Origin: Aliarcobacter sp.
Lineage (GTDB): Bacteria; Campylobacterota; Campylobacteria; Campylobacterales; Arcobacteraceae
Length of the DNA stretch: 38,279 bases
Direction of reading: 5' to 3'
NCBI GenBank assembly: GCA_028703945.1
Contig: JAQVLW010000018.1
Coordinates: 1-38,279 of the forward strand
The notes beneath the pieces are model-generated. The model was not told the DNA's origin, searched no databases, and was given only the letters and a program-made list of their open reading frames with translations. Shown in pieces: positions 5,000-17,944 of the stretch. The position numbers were made by a program, and so were the translations under genes. How positions within the stretch are numbered: position 1 is the stretch's first letter; each line of letters begins with the position of its first letter.

Positions 5000-5845
5000 T
5001 TAAGCCTGTGTATTTGATTTTGACCAAGAAATAATTTTTCTATCTTCCTGAATGATATGATGAACAAGTGCAATATCTATTATTTTTGCTAATTCTTTTT
5101 CAAAAAGACTTTCATCCATAGTCGGAAGTTGTTTTACAAAAGTATTTATTTTTTCGATTATATTAAAATGTAGTGCTTTGTGTTCTTCAAGAAAAGGATA
5201 CTTCATTTCTTGCATAAATAGTTCTTCATGTTTAAAATGTGTTTTCATATATGAATATAAATCTGTTAAAACTTCTTTTATTTTTGCAGTTCTTTGTTCT
5301 GGTTCAACTTCTGTAAATGCTTCTTCTGCAATATCAAAAAGTTTTTTATGTTCTGCATCAATTTTTTTATCTTCAACACTATAAATATCTTTCCATCCAA
5401 AATTCTTTTTTAAATCTGATAAGGAAGTATTCCAAAGTTGGATTTTTTTATCTTCTAAAACAATATGTCTTATAAAATATTCTTCAATAAAATCTATAAG
5501 AGATTTTTCAATATCTTGTAATTCTAAGTTATTTAATTCAGAAATCAAAGTAGTAAGCATATTTAACATATTTTTATGAAGAAGTTTATGTGAGCTAAGT
5601 TCTGGATAATCTATTTGTGCCATATATTTTTGTTCATTAGCAAAATGTGTTCCCACGTAATCAAAAAGTTTTGAAATAACATCTTTTAGTTTTATCTTAA
5701 CCTTATCATCATCTTTTAGTTTTGAAATATTCATGGCTTCTCTAGCAATTGTAAAAAGTTTTTGGTGTTCCTTATCAATCTTGAAATTATGGATATTATA
5801 TTCAGATTTCCAAATTATTGAATTGGAATTTGTGTTATTTTTCAT
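5000..5845 (-). CDS. Tandem (two-domain) bacteriohemerythrin
   Basis: 281 aa with two complete hemerythrin ligand sets: DKEHQKLF/HFANEQ/HKLLHKNML/HIVLED and DAEHKKLF/HFKHEE/HKALHFNII/HIIQED. Confidence 0.9.
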   Translation of the reverse strand: MKNNTNSNSIIWKSEYNIHNFKIDKEHQKLFTIAREAMNISKLKDDDKVKIKLKDVISKLFDYVGTHFANEQKYMAQIDYPELSSHKLLHKNMLNMLTTLISELNNLELQDIEKSLIDFIEEYFIRHIVLEDKKIQLWNTSLSDLKKNFGWKDIYSVEDKKIDAEHKKLFDIAEEAFTEVEPEQRTAKIKEVLTDLYSYMKTHFKHEELFMQEMKYPFLEEHKALHFNIIEKINTFVKQLPTMDESLFEKELAKIIDIALVHHIIQEDRKIISWSKSNTQA

Positions 5846-6433: not shown

Positions 6434-6868
6434 TTATTTTACGGGCTCCTGTTTACCTATAAATATCTCAGCATATATCCTATCCGTTCCTGCTATATGA
6501 TGTAAAAACCAATCTACAAGATATATAAGTGTTTCTTGTGAGATTATAATTTCTACTTGGTTTAAATATTCACTATTTGAAATCTGATTATGATATTTTG
6601 TGAATTTATTTAGAAATTCTCTATGTTCATTTTTATGTTCATCTTTCTTATTGTATTTAAGATTATTAAATAATTCTTCTTCACAAGTAAAATGAAAATT
6701 TGCATAATCTATTAGTTTATTAATTATCATAAAAATATCTTTCTTTTGCGTATTGCTATAAATTGAAGTGCTTAATTGATTAATAATATTTAATAATTCT
6801 TTATGTTGTTCATCTATAAGAGGTATTCCTAAACTCATTGTTTTATCATTCCATATTATAGTATTCAT
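6434..6868 (-). CDS. Bacteriohemerythrin (single domain)
   Basis: 144 aa with hemerythrin ligands: DEQHKELL, HFTCEEEL, HKNEHREFL, HHIAGTD. Start overlaps the stop of the upstream kinase (TAATG). Confidence 0.92.
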   Translation of the reverse strand: MNTIIWNDKTMSLGIPLIDEQHKELLNIINQLSTSIYSNTQKKDIFMIINKLIDYANFHFTCEEELFNNLKYNKKDEHKNEHREFLNKFTKYHNQISNSEYLNQVEIIISQETLIYLVDWFLHHIAGTDRIYAEIFIGKQEPVK

Positions 6869-9400: not shown

Positions 9401-10012
9401 TTATTTTCTTTTAGATTTCTTTCTGGAAGTATTTATTTTGTATTCTACTTTTTTTAATTTCTCTATTAATTTTGAAGAAAGTTTATACATATCCATCATA
9501 ATATCTTTTTTTTCATTATTTAAATCTTTTTTACTATTATCATATCTATTTATTAAATCTAAATAATTCATATCTTTTAAATATGGATAAAAATATGCAG
9601 TTTTCTCCTCTTCAATTATCCATTCACTTAAAAGTGAAATAACAACTAATTCAGGTATCCAAGAACTGCCATTTGGCAAACAAACTTCAATGGTTTTTAT
9701 TAAAGTATCATAATAAATCATCAAAGGTTCTTCTTTTTTTGCAAGTAATTTTAAAGTCGCATTTTTATGGGCATTTTCTATTAAACTTCTTAAATAAGTT
9801 GAGTTTATTACTGTATCTTGAAGTTGTTCTAGCAACTTCTTTAACGAAGAATAAACCAACTCTTTATCTTTATCATTACCTAATTCAAAGCTATATCCAA
9901 TATTATCTATTTGATAAAAAGATTGCTCCAATGTCGTTCTTATAAATACTAAAAGTGCTTCTGTTTTTACATCTCTTAGAAGTTTTGGTTTTACTCTATT
10001 TTTGCAAGTCAT
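9401..10012 (-). CDS. Uncharacterised 203-aa, apparently alpha-helical protein
   Basis: ATG at 10012, two bases from the stop of the GGDEF gene. No family recognised. Confidence 0.75.
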   Translation of the reverse strand: MTCKNRVKPKLLRDVKTEALLVFIRTTLEQSFYQIDNIGYSFELGNDKDKELVYSSLKKLLEQLQDTVINSTYLRSLIENAHKNATLKLLAKKEEPLMIYYDTLIKTIEVCLPNGSSWIPELVVISLLSEWIIEEEKTAYFYPYLKDMNYLDLINRYDNSKKDLNNEKKDIMMDMYKLSSKLIEKLKKVEYKINTSRKKSKRK

Positions 10013-10014
10013 AT

Positions 10015-11613
10015 TTATGCATTAACTTTTATTTGATTTCTACCACTTCTTTTTGCTTCATAAAGTAAATCATCAGCTTGTTTATAAATTTTATCATCAA
10101 TATCATTTGCATTTTTACATATTAATCCCATAGATGCAGTTATATAAGAACTGGCACTATTAAACTCATGGGTGATTTTTAAATCTTCAATATTACTTTT
10201 TATGGTGTTTGCAAATTCAATAGCTTTTTCTTTTGTATCCATTTGATAGACAATAGCAAATTCTTCTCCACCTAATCTAAAAGCAAAATCAGAAGAACGA
10301 TGTAAACTTTCTTTTAAACAAGTTGCAAATTTTACTAAAACATCATCGCCTTTTTGATGTCCATAATTATCATTATAGAGTTTAAAATGATCAATATCCA
10401 TAAATAAAAAAGAGACTAATTCGTCTTTTCTTTTTGCATTATTTATGATTTTAGGAAAGATTTCATCAAAATATCTTCTATTATAGATATTTGTAAGTCC
10501 ATCTGTAATGCTTAGAATTTCTATTAATTTTCTATCTGTAATATCATATCGTATTGCACTATAACCAACTATTTTTCCTTCTTTGGAAAAATTTGGTTCA
10601 ATGATCGCTTTTACCCAATAATAATCACCATTCTTTTTGAGATTTTTAATCTCTCCTTTCCAAATTTTTCCACTACTAATTGTTTCCCATAACTCTTTAT
10701 ATATTGAATCTGGCATATCAGGATGTTTTAGAATATTGTGATTTTTTCCTAATAATTCTTCTTTTGTATAACCAGATATTTCACAAAAAGCTTCAGAAAC
10801 AGATACTATTCTACCTTTGTTATTTGTTGTTGAAGTAATAATATTTTTATCAATCAAATGATTAAAAATTTTTATCTCTTGAATTTGTTTTAGATTTAAA
10901 AATATATTTATAACCTTTGAAATTAACTCTTCTTGTAAAATAGGTTTTAAAATAATATCATTTGCACCATATTTATAGAATTTTGTTTTTAATTCATTTT
11001 CATTACTTTTAGTAACTATTATAATAGGGGAATTTTTGTAAGAATTCAAAGCTCTTATTTTTCGAGTAAGTTCTAAACCATCTAAATTTGGCATTTCATA
11101 ATCACTTATAATTAATGAAAAACTTCTTTCTTGATTTAATATTTCAAGAGCTTTTGCTCCATCTTCAACAATGCTTACTTTTAATAAGAGTTTTTCTAAA
11201 GTTTGCTTAATTTGATTAGAAACAGTATTTGAATCTTCAACTATTAAAACACTTTCATTACGACAGAATTTCATTGCAGAAACTAAATTATAAATGTATC
11301 TAAACCCATTAGAATCTTTTAAAACATAATCAAGAATATTTGAATACTTGTATAAAAGCTCTTTTTCTAAAGTTGAACTAAAAATGATAGTTGGAATATT
11401 TTCTTTTTCTAATAATTCCAAAATCTGAGAGTTAGGACTATCGTTTAAAAATAGGTTAGAGATAACTACAAAGAAATCATTTTCTTTTATTAGTTTTTCT
11501 GTTTCTTCCATAGAGCTGGCTTCAAAAATTATTAATCTTTGATTATCTACAAATAAATTTCTAATAACACTTCTTATTACTATTGAATTGTCAATTATCA
11601 ATATTTTTTTCAT
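10015..11613 (-). CDS. Diguanylate cyclase with tandem receivers and Aer-type PAS (REC-REC-PAS-GGDEF)
   Basis: 532 aa; second REC LIISDYEMPNLDG; PAS NHNILKHPDMP...WKGEIKNLKKNGDYYWV; GGDEF with FRLGGEEFAIVY and upstream RSSD (RxxD I-site position). Confidence 0.93.
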   Translation of the reverse strand: MKKILIIDNSIVIRSVIRNLFVDNQRLIIFEASSMEETEKLIKENDFFVVISNLFLNDSPNSQILELLEKENIPTIIFSSTLEKELLYKYSNILDYVLKDSNGFRYIYNLVSAMKFCRNESVLIVEDSNTVSNQIKQTLEKLLLKVSIVEDGAKALEILNQERSFSLIISDYEMPNLDGLELTRKIRALNSYKNSPIIIVTKSNENELKTKFYKYGANDIILKPILQEELISKVINIFLNLKQIQEIKIFNHLIDKNIITSTTNNKGRIVSVSEAFCEISGYTKEELLGKNHNILKHPDMPDSIYKELWETISSGKIWKGEIKNLKKNGDYYWVKAIIEPNFSKEGKIVGYSAIRYDITDRKLIEILSITDGLTNIYNRRYFDEIFPKIINNAKRKDELVSFLFMDIDHFKLYNDNYGHQKGDDVLVKFATCLKESLHRSSDFAFRLGGEEFAIVYQMDTKEKAIEFANTIKSNIEDLKITHEFNSASSYITASMGLICKNANDIDDKIYKQADDLLYEAKRSGRNQIKVNA

Positions 11614-11616
11614 TTT

Positions 11617-13800
11617 TTAATCTTTATACCTATTTCTAATCTCTTTAAATTTATCAATATTTTCAAAAAATAAATCAATTAATTTAGGGTCAAAATGTTT
11701 ACCTTTTTCATTTTTTAAAAGAGTAAAAATATCTTCATCGCTCCAAGCTTTTTTATAACATCTATCACTTCCTAAAGCATCAAATACATCTGCAATTGCA
11801 GTAATTCTTCCATAAATATGAATATCTTCACCTTTTAAATTTCTGGGATAACCATTTCCATCCCATTTTTCATGATGGTCACGTGCAACTATTGCTGCTG
11901 CTTTTAAAATTTCTCTTTTAGAATTTTTAAGGATGTTGTATCCTACAACAGTATGTTTTCGCATAACTTTCCATTCATCATCATCTAATTTCCCAGGTTT
12001 ATTTAAAATAGAATCAGGAACACCAACTTTTCCTATATCATGCATTGGACTTGCTGTAAATAAAATCTCACCCTCTTTTTCATCTAACCCATATAATGTT
12101 GCTAAAAGTTTCGAATAAGTAGCAACTCTTTTTACATGATTTCCTGTTTCATTACTTCTACTTTCACCAATTTCTCCCATTTTATAAATTATTTCTCTTT
12201 GGGTTTCTTCTATTTCTTGATGTAGTTCAATTACATCTGTTATCTCTTTTCTGATACTCATATATTCTAAAATTTCACCATTTAGGTTTATGATAGGAAC
12301 TACTGTTGCTAAGAAGTGATGGATTTTATTATCTTTAAGTTTATTACTTATTCTTCCTTTCCAAATTTTTCCTTGTGATAATTCTTTCCACATCTGCTCT
12401 ACTTGAGAATTTTCAGAAACTCTATTTATATAATCATAAGGTTTTCCAATTAACTCTTTTTTTGTGTAACCACTAATTTCATAAAACTCTTTATCTGCAT
12501 AAGTGATATTTTTATTTTTATCAAGTCTTAAAATAATATTACTTTGTTCAATGGCATTTTCATAAAGTTTTGAAAGATTAACTATTTCTTTGAAGTTATT
12601 TTGAGATATATCATATTGATTTTTCAAATACTCTTTAGTCTCTTCATTATTAGTAATATCAGTTCTAATTCCAATATATTCAAGAATTTCACCATTATTA
12701 TCTATTATTGGATTTATTATTGTCTGAACCCAATATGCACTTCCATCTTTTTTTTTATTTTTAACTATTCCACTCCAAGGATTTTTTAATTCTTTAATAG
12801 TGTGCCACATCTCTTTAAATGCTAAAGAATCCATATCGGGATGTCTTACAATATTGTGAGGTCTTCCCAAAAGTTCCTTTTCTTCATATCCTGAAATAGT
12901 ACAAAAAGCTTCATTCGCATAAGTTATTATTCCTTTTGCATCAGTTTTTGAAACAATAAAACTTCTATCTACAGTATTTTTATATTGATTTAATAGTTGA
13001 GTTTTACAAGTAACTTCATCTTCCATATCCTTATCACCTATAAAAATATCTGTTTTTAAGATTAACTCTTCAATAGCATAGGGTTTTCTTATAATCTCTT
13101 TTACGCCTAATCTAAAAGAGTCTCTTATAAGATTTGATGATATGTTTCCTGAGATAATCATGACTTTAATATTCAATTTATCTAATATTAAAGCTCTATT
13201 TTTGATTAAAAAATCATATCCATTAGATTCTTCAAGTTCTAAATCCAATAACATTAAATCAATTTTATTTAAATGAATTATTTCTAATGCTTCTTTTGCA
13301 TTTTTTGCTTCTAATACTGTGTAATTTCTATTATGAAGAATATCTTTTAGTTGTTCTCTAACAACAAAAGAATCATCTACTATTAAAATAGTTTTTGATT
13401 TATTTCTTTCTAATTGTTTTATCAGATTTGGAATTTCTGAAATTTTGTATATAAAGTTTTTATCTTTGTTTATAAAATCTATAATTCCTTTTTGATAAGA
13501 AACCTCTCTTAATTGAGAGTCTGTTTGTGATGTAAGAACTATTATTTTGGCTTTTGAAGAAGATAACTCTTTTATAAGTTCATATCCATTTCCATCAGGA
13601 AGATTTATATCTAAGATTATATAATCTATGTTTTTATTATTGAGTATTTCTCTTGCTTCTTTTAATGTAGGAGCTAAAAATGTATTAAAGCCTGAACTAG
13701 AGAAGATATTATTGATTATTTTAATCATAGAAGAAGAATCTTCTACAATTAAGATATTGAAATTTTTTGATTTAAATTCAAAATAATCACATCTTTTCAT
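11617..13800 (-). CDS. c-di-GMP phosphodiesterase with tandem receivers and two PAS domains (REC-REC-PAS-PAS-HD-GYP)
   Basis: 727 aa; RECs with YIILDINLPDGNG and LMLLDLELEESNG; PAS PHNIVRHPDMD...WSGIVKNKKKDGSAYWV; HD-GYP MHDIGKVG...HHEKWDGNGYPRNLKG. Confidence 0.94.
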   Translation of the reverse strand: MKRCDYFEFKSKNFNILIVEDSSSMIKIINNIFSSSGFNTFLAPTLKEAREILNNKNIDYIILDINLPDGNGYELIKELSSSKAKIIVLTSQTDSQLREVSYQKGIIDFINKDKNFIYKISEIPNLIKQLERNKSKTILIVDDSFVVREQLKDILHNRNYTVLEAKNAKEALEIIHLNKIDLMLLDLELEESNGYDFLIKNRALILDKLNIKVMIISGNISSNLIRDSFRLGVKEIIRKPYAIEELILKTDIFIGDKDMEDEVTCKTQLLNQYKNTVDRSFIVSKTDAKGIITYANEAFCTISGYEEKELLGRPHNIVRHPDMDSLAFKEMWHTIKELKNPWSGIVKNKKKDGSAYWVQTIINPIIDNNGEILEYIGIRTDITNNEETKEYLKNQYDISQNNFKEIVNLSKLYENAIEQSNIILRLDKNKNITYADKEFYEISGYTKKELIGKPYDYINRVSENSQVEQMWKELSQGKIWKGRISNKLKDNKIHHFLATVVPIINLNGEILEYMSIRKEITDVIELHQEIEETQREIIYKMGEIGESRSNETGNHVKRVATYSKLLATLYGLDEKEGEILFTASPMHDIGKVGVPDSILNKPGKLDDDEWKVMRKHTVVGYNILKNSKREILKAAAIVARDHHEKWDGNGYPRNLKGEDIHIYGRITAIADVFDALGSDRCYKKAWSDEDIFTLLKNEKGKHFDPKLIDLFFENIDKFKEIRNRYKD

Positions 13801-13828: not shown

Positions 13829-14218
13829 TTATTCTTTTCTCCATTGTTCATAAAGTTTTTCAGCTTTTATTATCTCTTCACTAGTTGGTTTTCGTCTACA
13901 TGAAAGATAACCCTTAGAATTATCACTTGACTCAAAAGGATAAACTGTTGCAAAAACCCAATAATATCCACCATCTTTTGTTGCATTTTTTACATATCCT
14001 GTCCAAATATTACCTTTTTGAACTGTATCCCATAAACTTTTAAATGCTTTTTTAGGCATATCTTTATGTCTTACCATATTATGCGGTTGTCCCATTAGTT
14101 CTTCAAGTGTATATCCAGCAATTTTACAAAAATCTTCATTTGCAAATTTTATTATTCCTTTAGCATCTGTTTCACTAACTAAAAATGCATTTTTATCTAG
14201 TACTGTTTCTTTTGACAT
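13829..14218 (-). CDS. Stand-alone Aer-type PAS protein (CetB/Aer-PAS-like energy-taxis sensor)
   Basis: 129 aa: GYTLEELMGQPHNMVRHKDMPKKAFKSLWDTVQKGNIWTGYVKNATKDGGYYWVFATVYP, matching the E. coli Aer PAS pattern. Confidence 0.9.
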   Translation of the reverse strand: MSKETVLDKNAFLVSETDAKGIIKFANEDFCKIAGYTLEELMGQPHNMVRHKDMPKKAFKSLWDTVQKGNIWTGYVKNATKDGGYYWVFATVYPFESSDNSKGYLSCRRKPTSEEIIKAEKLYEQWRKE

Positions 14219-14230
14219 CTTTAATTTCCT

Positions 14231-15466
14231 TTAGTTGAACTTTTTACTTTTTGCATCTGCTAACAATTCATTAGCCAACTGTGAAACATTTTGTGCAATT
14301 GATTTCACATGATTTGATTCACTTGCATTTTCTTGTGTTACACGGTCTAACATATTTACTGCATCATTTATCTGTTCAATTCCTGTCATTTGTTCTTTTG
14401 ATGCTCTTGAAACATCTTCTATAATGTGAATTGTTTCTGAAATATTTTTATTTAATTCTTTATAACCATCTATCATATCAGCTGATACTGTTTTTCCATC
14501 ATTTGCTTTCATAGTTGCTTCTTGAACAAGATTTTTTATCTCTTTAGCAGCATCTGCACTTCTATTTGCTAGATTTCTTACCTCTGCTGCAACAACTGCG
14601 AATCCTTTTCCTGCTTCTCCTGCCGTTGCTGCTTCTACTGCTGCATTTAAAGAAAGAATATTTGTTTGAAATGCTATTTGATCAATTACAGTAATCGCTT
14701 CATTTATAGAATTAACTTTTTGATTTATTTCATCCATTGAACTTGCTGTTTTACTAGCTAACTCTTCACCTGTAAAAACAGATTTTTTTACGATTTGTCC
14801 TAATGTTGCCATTTTTGTAGCGTTCTCAGCATTATTTCTTGTGATGCTTGTGATTTCTTCAAGGGCTGCTGCTGTTTCTTCCAAAGATGCTGCCTGATCA
14901 TTTGCTTTTGAAGCTAAATTATTCATAGAAGATGTCATTACAGATGAATTTTGTTCTAAGGTTTGACCATTTTGGAAATTGTTTTTTGCATTTTTTTCTA
15001 AAGAACTTCCTAATTTATTAATACTTTCCATTAATAATTTCATATCATCTTTGTATTTATCAATTACTTTTATACTATCAGTGAAATCATCATCTGTATA
15101 ACTATTAACAACTCTTAGAATTCTTGAAGTAGAGTCATCTAAACTATCTAGCATTTTATTTAGAGTATTTCTTAAAGTAGAAATCATTGGATTATTAGTT
15201 GATGCTTTTATTTTATTTTTATATATACCTTGTTCAACTTTGTCTGCGGTTAAAACAATTTCTCCCAAAACTTTCATATCATCTTTATTTCTATAATCTA
15301 CAGTTCTTATCTCTTCATTCCATTTTTTTAACATAAAATCAAGTTTAGAATTACCTGTTGATTCTATATAATCAAATTCACTTTTTTCATAAGAAATGAA
15401 TTTAATAAATTGCATAAAATAATCATTAACTACTTCTAAATCTTTATTTGAAATTGCACCAAACAT
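14231..15466 (-). CDS. Methyl-accepting chemotaxis protein, apparently soluble (no obvious transmembrane segment)
   Basis: MCP hairpin [41 protein letters not shown]-type core ([21 protein letters not shown]...). Start at ATG 15466 preferred (MFGAISNKD..., preceded by AAGGGGAAGTA); the ORF track extension to 15535 covers the promoter. Confidence 0.93.
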
Positions 15467-15493: not shown

Positions 15494-15527
15494 AATAGTA
15501 TAAAAAATATGTGACTTTTTTGTGAGC
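15494..15527 (-). promoter_or_regulatory. Candidate OmpR/PhoB-type box plus -10 upstream of the MCP operon
   Basis: Plus strand AATAGTATAAAAAATATGTGACTTTTTTGTGAGC; TGTGA repeats at 15510 and 15521 (11-nt period); minus-strand -10 TATACT at 15502-15497. Confidence 0.6.
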
Positions 15528-15575
15528 TTGTACAAAAATAATTTTATTTATATTTTTTTAGGAGAAGATGGTAAC

Positions 15576-17159
15576 TTATATGGGTAATATAATAGTAAAT
15601 TCAAAACCATTATTTATGTTCTTTACTTCTGTTTTTCCTTTCATATTTTGTTCAATTATTATTTTTGTCATGTATAAACCTATTCCTGTTCCATGGGAAT
15701 TTGTTTTAGTTGTAAAGTATGGTTCAAATATAGATGATAAAATTTCTTTATTTTCTATTCCGCCTCCATTGTCTTGGATAATTAAATTTACAAATGAAGT
15801 GTTTTTTTCTGCATATATTAAAATAATTCCTTTTTCTATATTTTTATTCAATATAGCTTCTCTTGAATTAGATAATATATTGATTAAAGCTTGTTGTAAT
15901 TGATTTTCTAAGCATACTAATGAAATAGTTTCAGGAATATTAACCTCAATTTTTATATTGTCTATTTTAAACTGAATATTTAGTAAAGAGATTACTTTTA
16001 AAACAATTTTTTTTAAGGAAATTCTTTTGAAATTTTCTGTTGATTTATAGAAGTTTTTGAAATCATCAATTGTTTGTGACATAAAATTTAATTGATTATT
16101 CATTTTTATACTCCAGTCATCAACATAGCCTTTATTTAATTTAGAACTTGCATATTTTTTGGTTATTACACATGAAAGAAGTGAAATTATATTAAGAGGT
16201 TGTCTCCAATTGTGAGCAATTGCAGCTATCATTTCTCCCATTACTGCCATTTTAGATTGTTGAATAAGTATTTCTTCTTGTTTATATCGTTTCTTAATTT
16301 CTTCTTCAACTCTTTGTTCAAGTTTTTCTTGAAAATTTTTCTCGCTTGTAATTATTTCAAATGTACAAATAAATCCATTGTTATATTTAACAGTTTTATT
16401 TCTAAACCATTCTTTTATTCCATCACTTTCAAAATAAAATTCTAAAGATTTAGCTTCTCCAGTTAATACTACTTCTTTGTAATTATCAAAAAGGCTTCTT
16501 CCATTAAGAGAATCTAGTGGTTTAAAATTCCCAGGTTGTATTTTAGATAATCGTTGACCAATAAGTTGTTCTTCACTTAAATTAACAATTTTACATGCTT
16601 CTTTATTTGACATTGTGAATATAAAATCAATAATTTCTCCATCTTTATTATAGAAGCTATCAAAAGCCATTATTCCATCAAGAGAACTATCTAAAATAGC
16701 TTTTAAAGAATTTGCTTTTTCTAGTAATCTTTTTTCATTATATTTTTCTTTTGTTACATCATTATGAATACCTATCATTCGTATAGGTTTTCCATTATTA
16801 TCTCTAATTATACTTCCTCTACATCTTATCCAAAGAGTATGTCCTTTTTTATGTTTATAGCGTACAATCTGGTCGTAAGGATGTTCAGGATTTTTATAAT
16901 GCTTGTTAAAATTATCAATTGTCTTTTCTAAATCTTCATAAAATATCAATTCTTGCCATTCTGAAGTTAAATGTTTCTTTTCTTCAAAAGAGTACCCTAA
17001 TACTTTCCAAAACTTGGGACTTAACCATTCATTTTCAGGATTTTCAAGATCCCAATACCAGATTCCGTCTAAAGAATTTTCTTGTAGAAAATCAAAAATT
17101 GTCGAGTCTTTTTGAATTATTTCATATAATTCAGTTTTTAAATAGTAGTCTTTGTTCAC
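15576..17159 (-). CDS. Cytosolic PAS-PAS sensor histidine kinase
   Basis: 527 aa; PAS domains, H-box MAVMGEMIAAIAHNWRQPLNIIS, HATPase DNGGGIENKE and GTGIGLYMTK; no TM segment seen. Confidence 0.92.
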   Translation of the reverse strand: MNKDYYLKTELYEIIQKDSTIFDFLQENSLDGIWYWDLENPENEWLSPKFWKVLGYSFEEKKHLTSEWQELIFYEDLEKTIDNFNKHYKNPEHPYDQIVRYKHKKGHTLWIRCRGSIIRDNNGKPIRMIGIHNDVTKEKYNEKRLLEKANSLKAILDSSLDGIMAFDSFYNKDGEIIDFIFTMSNKEACKIVNLSEEQLIGQRLSKIQPGNFKPLDSLNGRSLFDNYKEVVLTGEAKSLEFYFESDGIKEWFRNKTVKYNNGFICTFEIITSEKNFQEKLEQRVEEEIKKRYKQEEILIQQSKMAVMGEMIAAIAHNWRQPLNIISLLSCVITKKYASSKLNKGYVDDWSIKMNNQLNFMSQTIDDFKNFYKSTENFKRISLKKIVLKVISLLNIQFKIDNIKIEVNIPETISLVCLENQLQQALINILSNSREAILNKNIEKGIILIYAEKNTSFVNLIIQDNGGGIENKEILSSIFEPYFTTKTNSHGTGIGLYMTKIIIEQNMKGKTEVKNINNGFEFTIILPI

Positions 17160-17171
17160 TTTTGCCTTTTT

Positions 17172-17855
17172 TTAATTAACAATTACTAATCTGTAGCCAA
17201 TTTTTGGAATATTTTCAATTATATCACAAGATAATTTCTTACGAATGTTTTTTACTAATGTTCTTAAACTCGTGCTAGTCATTATTTTATCATCGCACCA
17301 TATCATTTGTTCTATAGTTCTATATGAAACGATAGAAGATTTCTTTTGTATTAAAAGTTTTATAAATTCGATCTCTTTGCTGGTAAATTTCCTAATTTCA
17401 TTATTAACTACTACTTGTGAATTTTGTAAATCTAAAATTGTTGAAGGATTTAATTGGATACTTTTATTTATAAATTCATTCTTTTGATGATTATATATTT
17501 TTTCCATTAATTTTTCAATTTTATCAGAAGTTAATGGTTTGATAAAATACCCTTGGATATTACTATTAGAAACTTTTAAAAGATTGTCATTATCAGAATA
17601 AGCCGAAATAACTATAATAGGAATAGAATAGTTTATTTCCTTTATTTTATTTATGGTATCTAAACCATTTAATTTAGGTATATTTAAATCACATAGTATT
17701 ACATTTATTTTATTTGTTTTAAAAATTTCAATAGCTTCATACCCATCTGTTGCACTATATACTGTAGAAAATTCTGATTCAAAGATTCCAATCATAAGTT
17801 CTAATGTTTCTAAATTATCTTCAATAATTAGAATATTTTGTTTTAAAAAATCCAA
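17172..17855 (-). CDS. OmpR/PhoB-family response regulator transcription factor
   Basis: 227 aa; REC (VILCDLNIPKLNGLD, FIKPL) plus winged helix (FTSKEIEFIKLLIQKKSSIVSYRTIEQMIW...LRTLVKNIRKKL). TTG start at 17855 with AAAGG upstream. Confidence 0.92.
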   Translation of the reverse strand: MDFLKQNILIIEDNLETLELMIGIFESEFSTVYSATDGYEAIEIFKTNKINVILCDLNIPKLNGLDTINKIKEINYSIPIIVISAYSDNDNLLKVSNSNIQGYFIKPLTSDKIEKLMEKIYNHQKNEFINKSIQLNPSTILDLQNSQVVVNNEIRKFTSKEIEFIKLLIQKKSSIVSYRTIEQMIWCDDKIMTSTSLRTLVKNIRKKLSCDIIENIPKIGYRLVIVN

Positions 17856-17910
17856 TATATACCTTTAATTCATAGCTGTTGACTTATTTACTACACCTTT
17901 ACTATTGTAA

Positions 17911-17944
17911 AATAATATAAAAAAGATGTGAGTATTTTGTGAGT
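17911..17944 (-). promoter_or_regulatory. Candidate OmpR/PhoB-type box plus -10 upstream of the response regulator gene
   Basis: Plus strand AATAATATAAAAAAGATGTGAGTATTTTGTGAGT; TGTGAGT repeats at 17927 and 17938 (11-nt period); minus-strand -10 TATATT at 17919-17914. Confidence 0.6.

Follow-up and report, generated by a model that had tools for sequence, protein, structure and literature searches.

Genes and predicted promoter blocks at the locus

The window, by which we mean the whole stretch of 38,279 nucleotides analysed here, belongs to a 2.33-Mb Arcobacteraceae genome, in which it forms contig C35, and has a G+C content of 27%. All genes discussed lie on its minus strand (Table 1). A response regulator (RR) gene with a promoter-like block upstream is followed after 12 nt by the gene of a PAS histidine kinase (HK), and a second, closely similar block stands ahead of the gene of a methyl-accepting chemotaxis protein (MCP). 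The genes of the MCP, a single-PAS protein, an HD-GYP protein, a GGDEF protein and a 203-aa protein then follow each other with gaps of 2–28 nt. The MCP start at 15466 proposed in the first-pass annotation agrees with the orthologues, which align from residue 1.

Table 1. Genes and predicted promoter features of the regulator locus and the adjoining taxis/c-di-GMP operon, in window coordinates
Feature	Coordinates	Strand	Basis
Response regulator of the OmpR/PhoB type with REC and Trans_reg_C domains; start codon TTG; predicted binder of both blocks	17172..17855	-	Pfam; recognition helix identical in six orthologues
PAS histidine kinase, predicted RR partner	15576..17159	-	Pfam; adjoins RR at all six loci
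Predicted autoregulatory operator-promoter block, ahead of the RR-HK unit	17912..17943	-	Full match; same copy in G023, analogous operon-head copy in G006
Half-site 1 TCACA, RR copy	17938..17942	-	
Half-site 2 TCACA, RR copy	17927..17931	-	
Probable -10 TATTAT (TAnnAT), RR copy	17912..17917	-	
Predicted operator-promoter block ahead of the MCP/c-di-GMP operon (conserved core of 32 nt)	15495..15526	-	Full match to CTCACAAANNNNTCACNNNTTTTNTRTANNAT; kept in six genomes
Half-site 1 TCACA, MCP copy	15521..15525	-	
Half-site 2 TCACA, MCP copy	15510..15514	-	11 nt from half-site 1
Probable -10 TACTAT (TAnnAT), MCP copy	15495..15500	-	Follows half-site 2 at 9 nt; TAnnAT kept without change in 11/11 blocks
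MCP, opening the predicted target operon; start codon ATG 15466	14231..15466	-	Pfam; orthologues align from residue 1
Single-PAS protein, paired with MCP	13829..14218	-	Pfam; MCP-PAS pair conserved in many genomes
REC-REC-PAS-PAS-HD-GYP-type c-di-GMP phosphodiesterase	11617..13800	-	Pfam
REC-REC-PAS-GGDEF diguanylate cyclase	10015..11613	-	Pfam
203-aa protein, presumed end of the tight operon	9401..10012	-	2-nt gap to preceding gene

The 203-aa protein matched no Pfam or NCBIfam family; it is conserved, with homologues in the related genomes G023, G029 and G082. A second PAS kinase and a hemerythrin gene downstream of it perhaps belong to the operon too. Two hemerythrin-domain proteins are encoded past this second kinase, where the operon region ends (5000–5845 and 6434–6868), hinting at an oxygen or redox theme. 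In G023, an additional MCP gene, absent from the window, lies between the HD-GYP and GGDEF genes (L100:11052-12095).

The RR scored above the gathering thresholds for both Response_reg (1.7e-23) and Trans_reg_C (1.7e-10), which places it in the OmpR/PhoB family, and the receiver residues E12/D13, D56 and K106 of a predicted phosphorylatable receiver are invariant in seven sequences. The kinase of G029 (L101) is a shorter open frame of 392 rather than 527 aa, without roughly residues 150–270 of the window kinase; the RR and the block are kept there.

Sequence and uniqueness of the blocks

The two 34-nt blocks (15494–15527 and 17911–17944) agree at 29 of 34 positions, exactly as the first-pass annotation had stated, and the best 34-mer identity in 120 first-order Markov resamplings of both intergenic regions was 20.8 ± 1.3, with a maximum of 24/34. 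The TGTGA pairs it had described, with starts exactly 11 nt apart, are likewise present in both blocks (15510/15521 and 17927/17938). Across 11 homologous blocks, the invariant columns are CTCA, A6, A8, the CA of the second TCAC, TTTT and TA..AT. The TCAC cores stand 11 nt apart in the aligned blocks, a few of which carry single-base departures, and the consensus of the two half-sites, which a helical turn separates, is (A)CTCACAAA-N4-(T)CAC(A/T). Conservation is stronger in half-site 1 than in half-site 2 (T/A CAC A/T), and the TCACA repeat is inexact in some blocks because this second half-site is the weaker one.

The -10 hexamer had been annotated as TATACT or TATATT, 7 nt beyond the repeats. 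A -10 element does appear to lie downstream of the repeats, but its register is probably 2 nt further on: it is best read as TAnnAT, 9 nt after the second TCACA, because these columns are invariant in 11/11 blocks whereas the second base of the annotated hexamer varies between A, G and T. With this -10 at -12 to -7, half-site 1 would span about -37 to -33 and half-site 2 about -26 to -22. The blocks have two direct half-sites at the spacing of about 10–11 bp typical of OmpR/PhoB-type operators, and these overlap or replace the -35 region with respect to the predicted start site. In a leave-one-out analysis, the blocks gave matrix scores of 31.8–39.9 bits against a null maximum of 16.8 bits in 6 Mb.

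Within its own 2.33-Mb genome the motif is not scattered at random density. TCACA-N6-TCACAT has exactly three matches, namely the two blocks and one site inside a 357-codon open frame. When a -10-like TATANT was required at the observed distance, the two blocks were the only full matches, both at predicted promoters, with none at one mismatch and five at two mismatches. At up to three mismatches the motif count is at the level of the reversed-pattern control (51 vs 48); these scans were pattern searches, not matrix searches, and might miss weak sites. Setting the -10 one nucleotide too far recovered neither block, giving background matches only, and thereby served as a control of spacing. The third exact match and most of the two-mismatch matches were dismissed as sites, lying in open frames or having no proper -10. 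One two-mismatch match, C79:63415, overlaps the start of another RR gene and was left uncounted; it sits on the ribosome-binding region of that gene.

Conservation of the block and its linkage to the response regulator

Among 104 genomes of the family, RR orthologues of at least 60% identity (60–100%) occur in six: the own genome, G023, G029, G011, G006 and G083. The next-best RR is 41% identical, in G082. When 399 genomes of the order were searched with a profile, the orthologue group including G082 scored 343–403 bits, its members also sitting in the profile itself, against at most 193 bits for the rest. A protein search of genome contigs with the RR found one near-identical Aliarcobacter MAG (L034; RR 96% identical), and the remainder were unrelated receivers.

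The block is conserved in the orthologous promoters of all six genomes with an RR orthologue, each time directly 3' of the kinase gene, and in one fragmentary assembly. It precedes the MCP gene at five of the six loci; at the sixth, in G029, it precedes the HD-GYP gene, and the MCP orthologue lies elsewhere without a block. With the six diverged loci aligned on the block, their identity, binned by 10 nt from the block start onwards, was 0.97, 0.65, 0.75 and 0.57, and beyond the block it was near 0.35, the value expected from composition. Conservation beside the RR could be due in part to synteny, although the flanks have diverged. Because the compared genomes are related, these counts are not independent events, and their strength comes from conservation against diverged flanks and from the separate second copies.

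Such second copies, upstream of the RR transcription unit, were found in three of the six genomes (own, G023 and G006). The extra block of G006 (C1:1401795) heads a tight four-gene run, encoding a 1506-aa hybrid kinase, a REC-GGDEF protein, the RR and the HK, in which neighbouring genes overlap by 13 nt or lie 18–21 nt apart, so that the RR transcription unit is preceded by a block there as well. No block was found upstream of the RR in the 8–9.5 kb scanned in G029, G011 and G083, where the RR stands behind another co-directional gene. The autoregulation proposed in the first-pass annotation thus gains support in three genomes, in G006 through the operon-head copy, and would not be universal. 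Judged by where the blocks lie, control of the downstream operon would be the constant element and autoregulation would depend on the lineage. In G083, the REC-PAS-GGDEF gene just upstream of the RR is broken by a DDE transposase gene of opposite orientation (L104:1691-3055; C1 about 1140190-1141554), and this insertion may have cut the RR from its original promoter.

The block keeps company with the RR. Allowing up to three mismatches, the 32-nt pattern has ten matches in seven whole genomes (the six with an RR orthologue and G082), eight of them at the RR locus, one heading the G006 RR operon and one, with three mismatches, away from the locus in G029; the reversed pattern has a single match in total in the same genomes. 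With at most one mismatch, the block occurs in just five of the 399 order genomes, which are the five sampled genomes with an RR orthologue, and there only at the RR locus. Conversely, inspection of the upstream 260 nt revealed no block at any of six MCP-PAS orthologues with 78–81% identity and no adjoining RR or HK (G009, G007, G008, G002, G029 and the second G006 copy). Nor was a block present at the kinase orthologues of G102 (52% identity) and G071 (48%); neither genome yielded an RR orthologue, and in G071 the contig starts right ahead of the kinase gene. Co-occurrence, together with absence from HK or MCP-PAS orthologues that have no RR, supports the suggested linkage of block and RR.

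Two further loci deserve description. In a similar signalling cluster of G102, a GGDEF-like protein takes the place of the RR ahead of the 52% kinase orthologue (L162:5434-7038), and the kinase partner may have been swapped or lost there. In G018, the one exception to this linkage among the sampled relatives, an assembly with a completeness of 54% in which no RR orthologue was found, the block is kept beside a remnant of the kinase gene: about 100 C-terminal kinase residues adjoin the block and the MCP-PAS pair (L164:1790-2575; C168). This copy is perhaps a decaying module.

The recognition helix of the RR, STSLRTLVKN, is identical in the six orthologues and slightly changed in the RR of G082 (MSSLRTLIKN). 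In the same place, the G082 block reads CTCATA-N5-ATCATT (CTCATAAAAAAATCATT, followed by TATAAT). Regulator helix and operator might therefore have diverged together, a hint from a single genome.

Proposed regulation and related systems

We consider it very probable that the blocks are operator-promoters of the RR encoded at 17172–17855, through which it would autoregulate the RR-HK unit and control the MCP/PAS/HD-GYP/GGDEF operon. In the proposed mechanism, the neighbouring PAS kinase would phosphorylate the RR, and two RR molecules would bind the two half-sites head to tail as a tandem dimer. The bound RR would then substitute for the -35 element just upstream of the TAnnAT -10 and most likely recruit RNA polymerase. 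Since one block would drive the RR-HK unit and the other the MCP-PAS-HD-GYP-GGDEF genes, sensor, regulator and taxis/c-di-GMP outputs would form a small closed regulon. What the sequences show is the position of the blocks, their uniqueness and conservation and their link to the RR; binding of the RR, its dependence on phosphorylation, the sign of its action and its signal are what we infer here.

Provided that the RR binds the block, activation is the likely sign of its action. The missing -35 is weak evidence for activation, because sigma-70 promoters of Campylobacterota often have no -35 element. The RR might instead repress from the same blocks: on half-sites spanning about -37 to -22 it would sit across the -35 region and could keep RNA polymerase off the promoter. 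Negative autoregulation would then be combined with repression of the taxis operon until a signal alters phosphorylation, and the promoter might work alone, given that promoters in this phylum are generally not dependent on a -35 element. We regard repression as unlikely, though worth keeping in mind, since the position of the sites and the lack of a recognisable -35 fit the activator sites of same-family regulators in the phylum, HP1043 (PMC5253667) and PceP (PMC7755780).

That the block belongs to a different, perhaps global, regulator, or is a special core promoter found at these genes by coincidence, seems considerably less probable than repression. Its T-rich spacer and TAnnAT are ordinary promoter features, and RR binding is a prediction; however, the block is almost absent elsewhere in the genome, it appears among the 399 order genomes only where the RR orthologue is present, and orthologues of the kinase and of the taxis genes without the RR have none. 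Least credible of all is a recent promoter duplication or conversion of no regulatory meaning, with cross-genome conservation as inherited synteny: the copies are indeed very alike (29/34) and 2.4 kb apart in the own genome and G023, but their similarity to each other stops at the block edge, identity between genomes drops to background directly outside it, and G006 carries its second copy elsewhere, in front of the RR operon.

Binding by the RR, which remains our preferred reading, would have several relatives. For the DccR regulator of Campylobacter jejuni, Wosten et al. in 2010 reportedly described the box WTTCAC-N6-TTCACW. The half-site of the block would resemble this repeat, and an OmpR-type RR would again be associated with TCAC cores that lie across the -35 region at a distance of exactly 11 nt. 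The targets of DccR, genes of periplasmic and membrane proteins, differ from those considered here. A small regulon of DccR to which dccR itself belongs is cited in PMC7118207.

A documented case of like geometry is that of HP1043/HsrA in Helicobacter pylori, an OmpR/PhoB-type regulator of the same phylum, whose box TTTAAG-N5-TTTAAG has direct half-sites with centres 11 bp apart and replaces the -35 just upstream of the -10 (PMC5253667). As in the block, its first half-site is better conserved than the second (PMC5253667). HP1043 is, however, an essential orphan regulator with a wide regulon (PMC5253667), whereas the RR has an adjacent kinase and a predicted local regulon of two promoters. The block does not belong to the HP1043/HsrA boxes, its half-site being CTCACA/TCAC and not TTTAAG; the geometry is common to both. 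In Sulfurospirillum, PceP/PceS (RR2) provides a phylum precedent for a local, self-activating regulon: 5-nt direct repeats overlap the -35, and this OmpR-family regulator is the proposed activator of its own operon and of an adjoining gene cluster (PMC7755780). It differs in its repeat, CTATW, in the 17-bp distance between the bound repeats, with a central copy in the -35, and in controlling organohalide respiration (PMC7755780).

The first-pass annotation had called the repeat PhoB-box-like. This holds as far as the geometry goes: the Pho box is built of direct repeats in 11-nt units, to which PhoB/PhoP, an RR of the OmpR/PhoB family, binds head to tail (PMC4415409). An identity with PhoB, on the other hand, was rejected: the RR reaches 65.7 bits against the cutoff of 296.2 bits of the PhoB equivalog (NCBIfam TIGR02154), the half-site is CTCACA and not the CTGTCAT of Escherichia coli, and no link to phosphate genes was seen. 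OmpR/PhoB-family sites with direct repeats of 11 bp standing in for the -35 are already known, and it is the half-site that differs from those of PhoB and HP1043.

Possibly, though we hold this only tentatively, the two-component module carries the block along as a portable element. After the kinase gene, the block would capture whichever signalling gene lies downstream, in most lineages MCP-PAS, a pair that has no block elsewhere in the family, and in G029 HD-GYP directly, with regulator and operator perhaps having co-diverged to a TCAT-type repeat in G082. If this is true, a self-contained sensor-plus-operator cassette would have rewired the genes of taxis and of c-di-GMP turnover so that they form a single private regulon.

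The genome of A. butzleri encodes 42 response regulators and 37 sensor kinases, and its non-chemotaxis two-component systems are too unlike those of other bacteria for functional prediction (PMC2147049). One of the dozens of two-component systems in Arcobacter hereby gains a predicted operator and a predicted feedback loop, and its predicted output would be a taxis receptor along with the synthesis and breakdown of c-di-GMP. RpoN and FliA are absent from A. butzleri (PMC2147049), and the proposed regulon might be relevant to how bacteria without these two factors couple motility genes to signals. In architecture only, the pair of MCP and single-PAS protein resembles the bipartite energy-taxis system CetA/CetB of C. 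jejuni (PMC2628428; PMC3558505).
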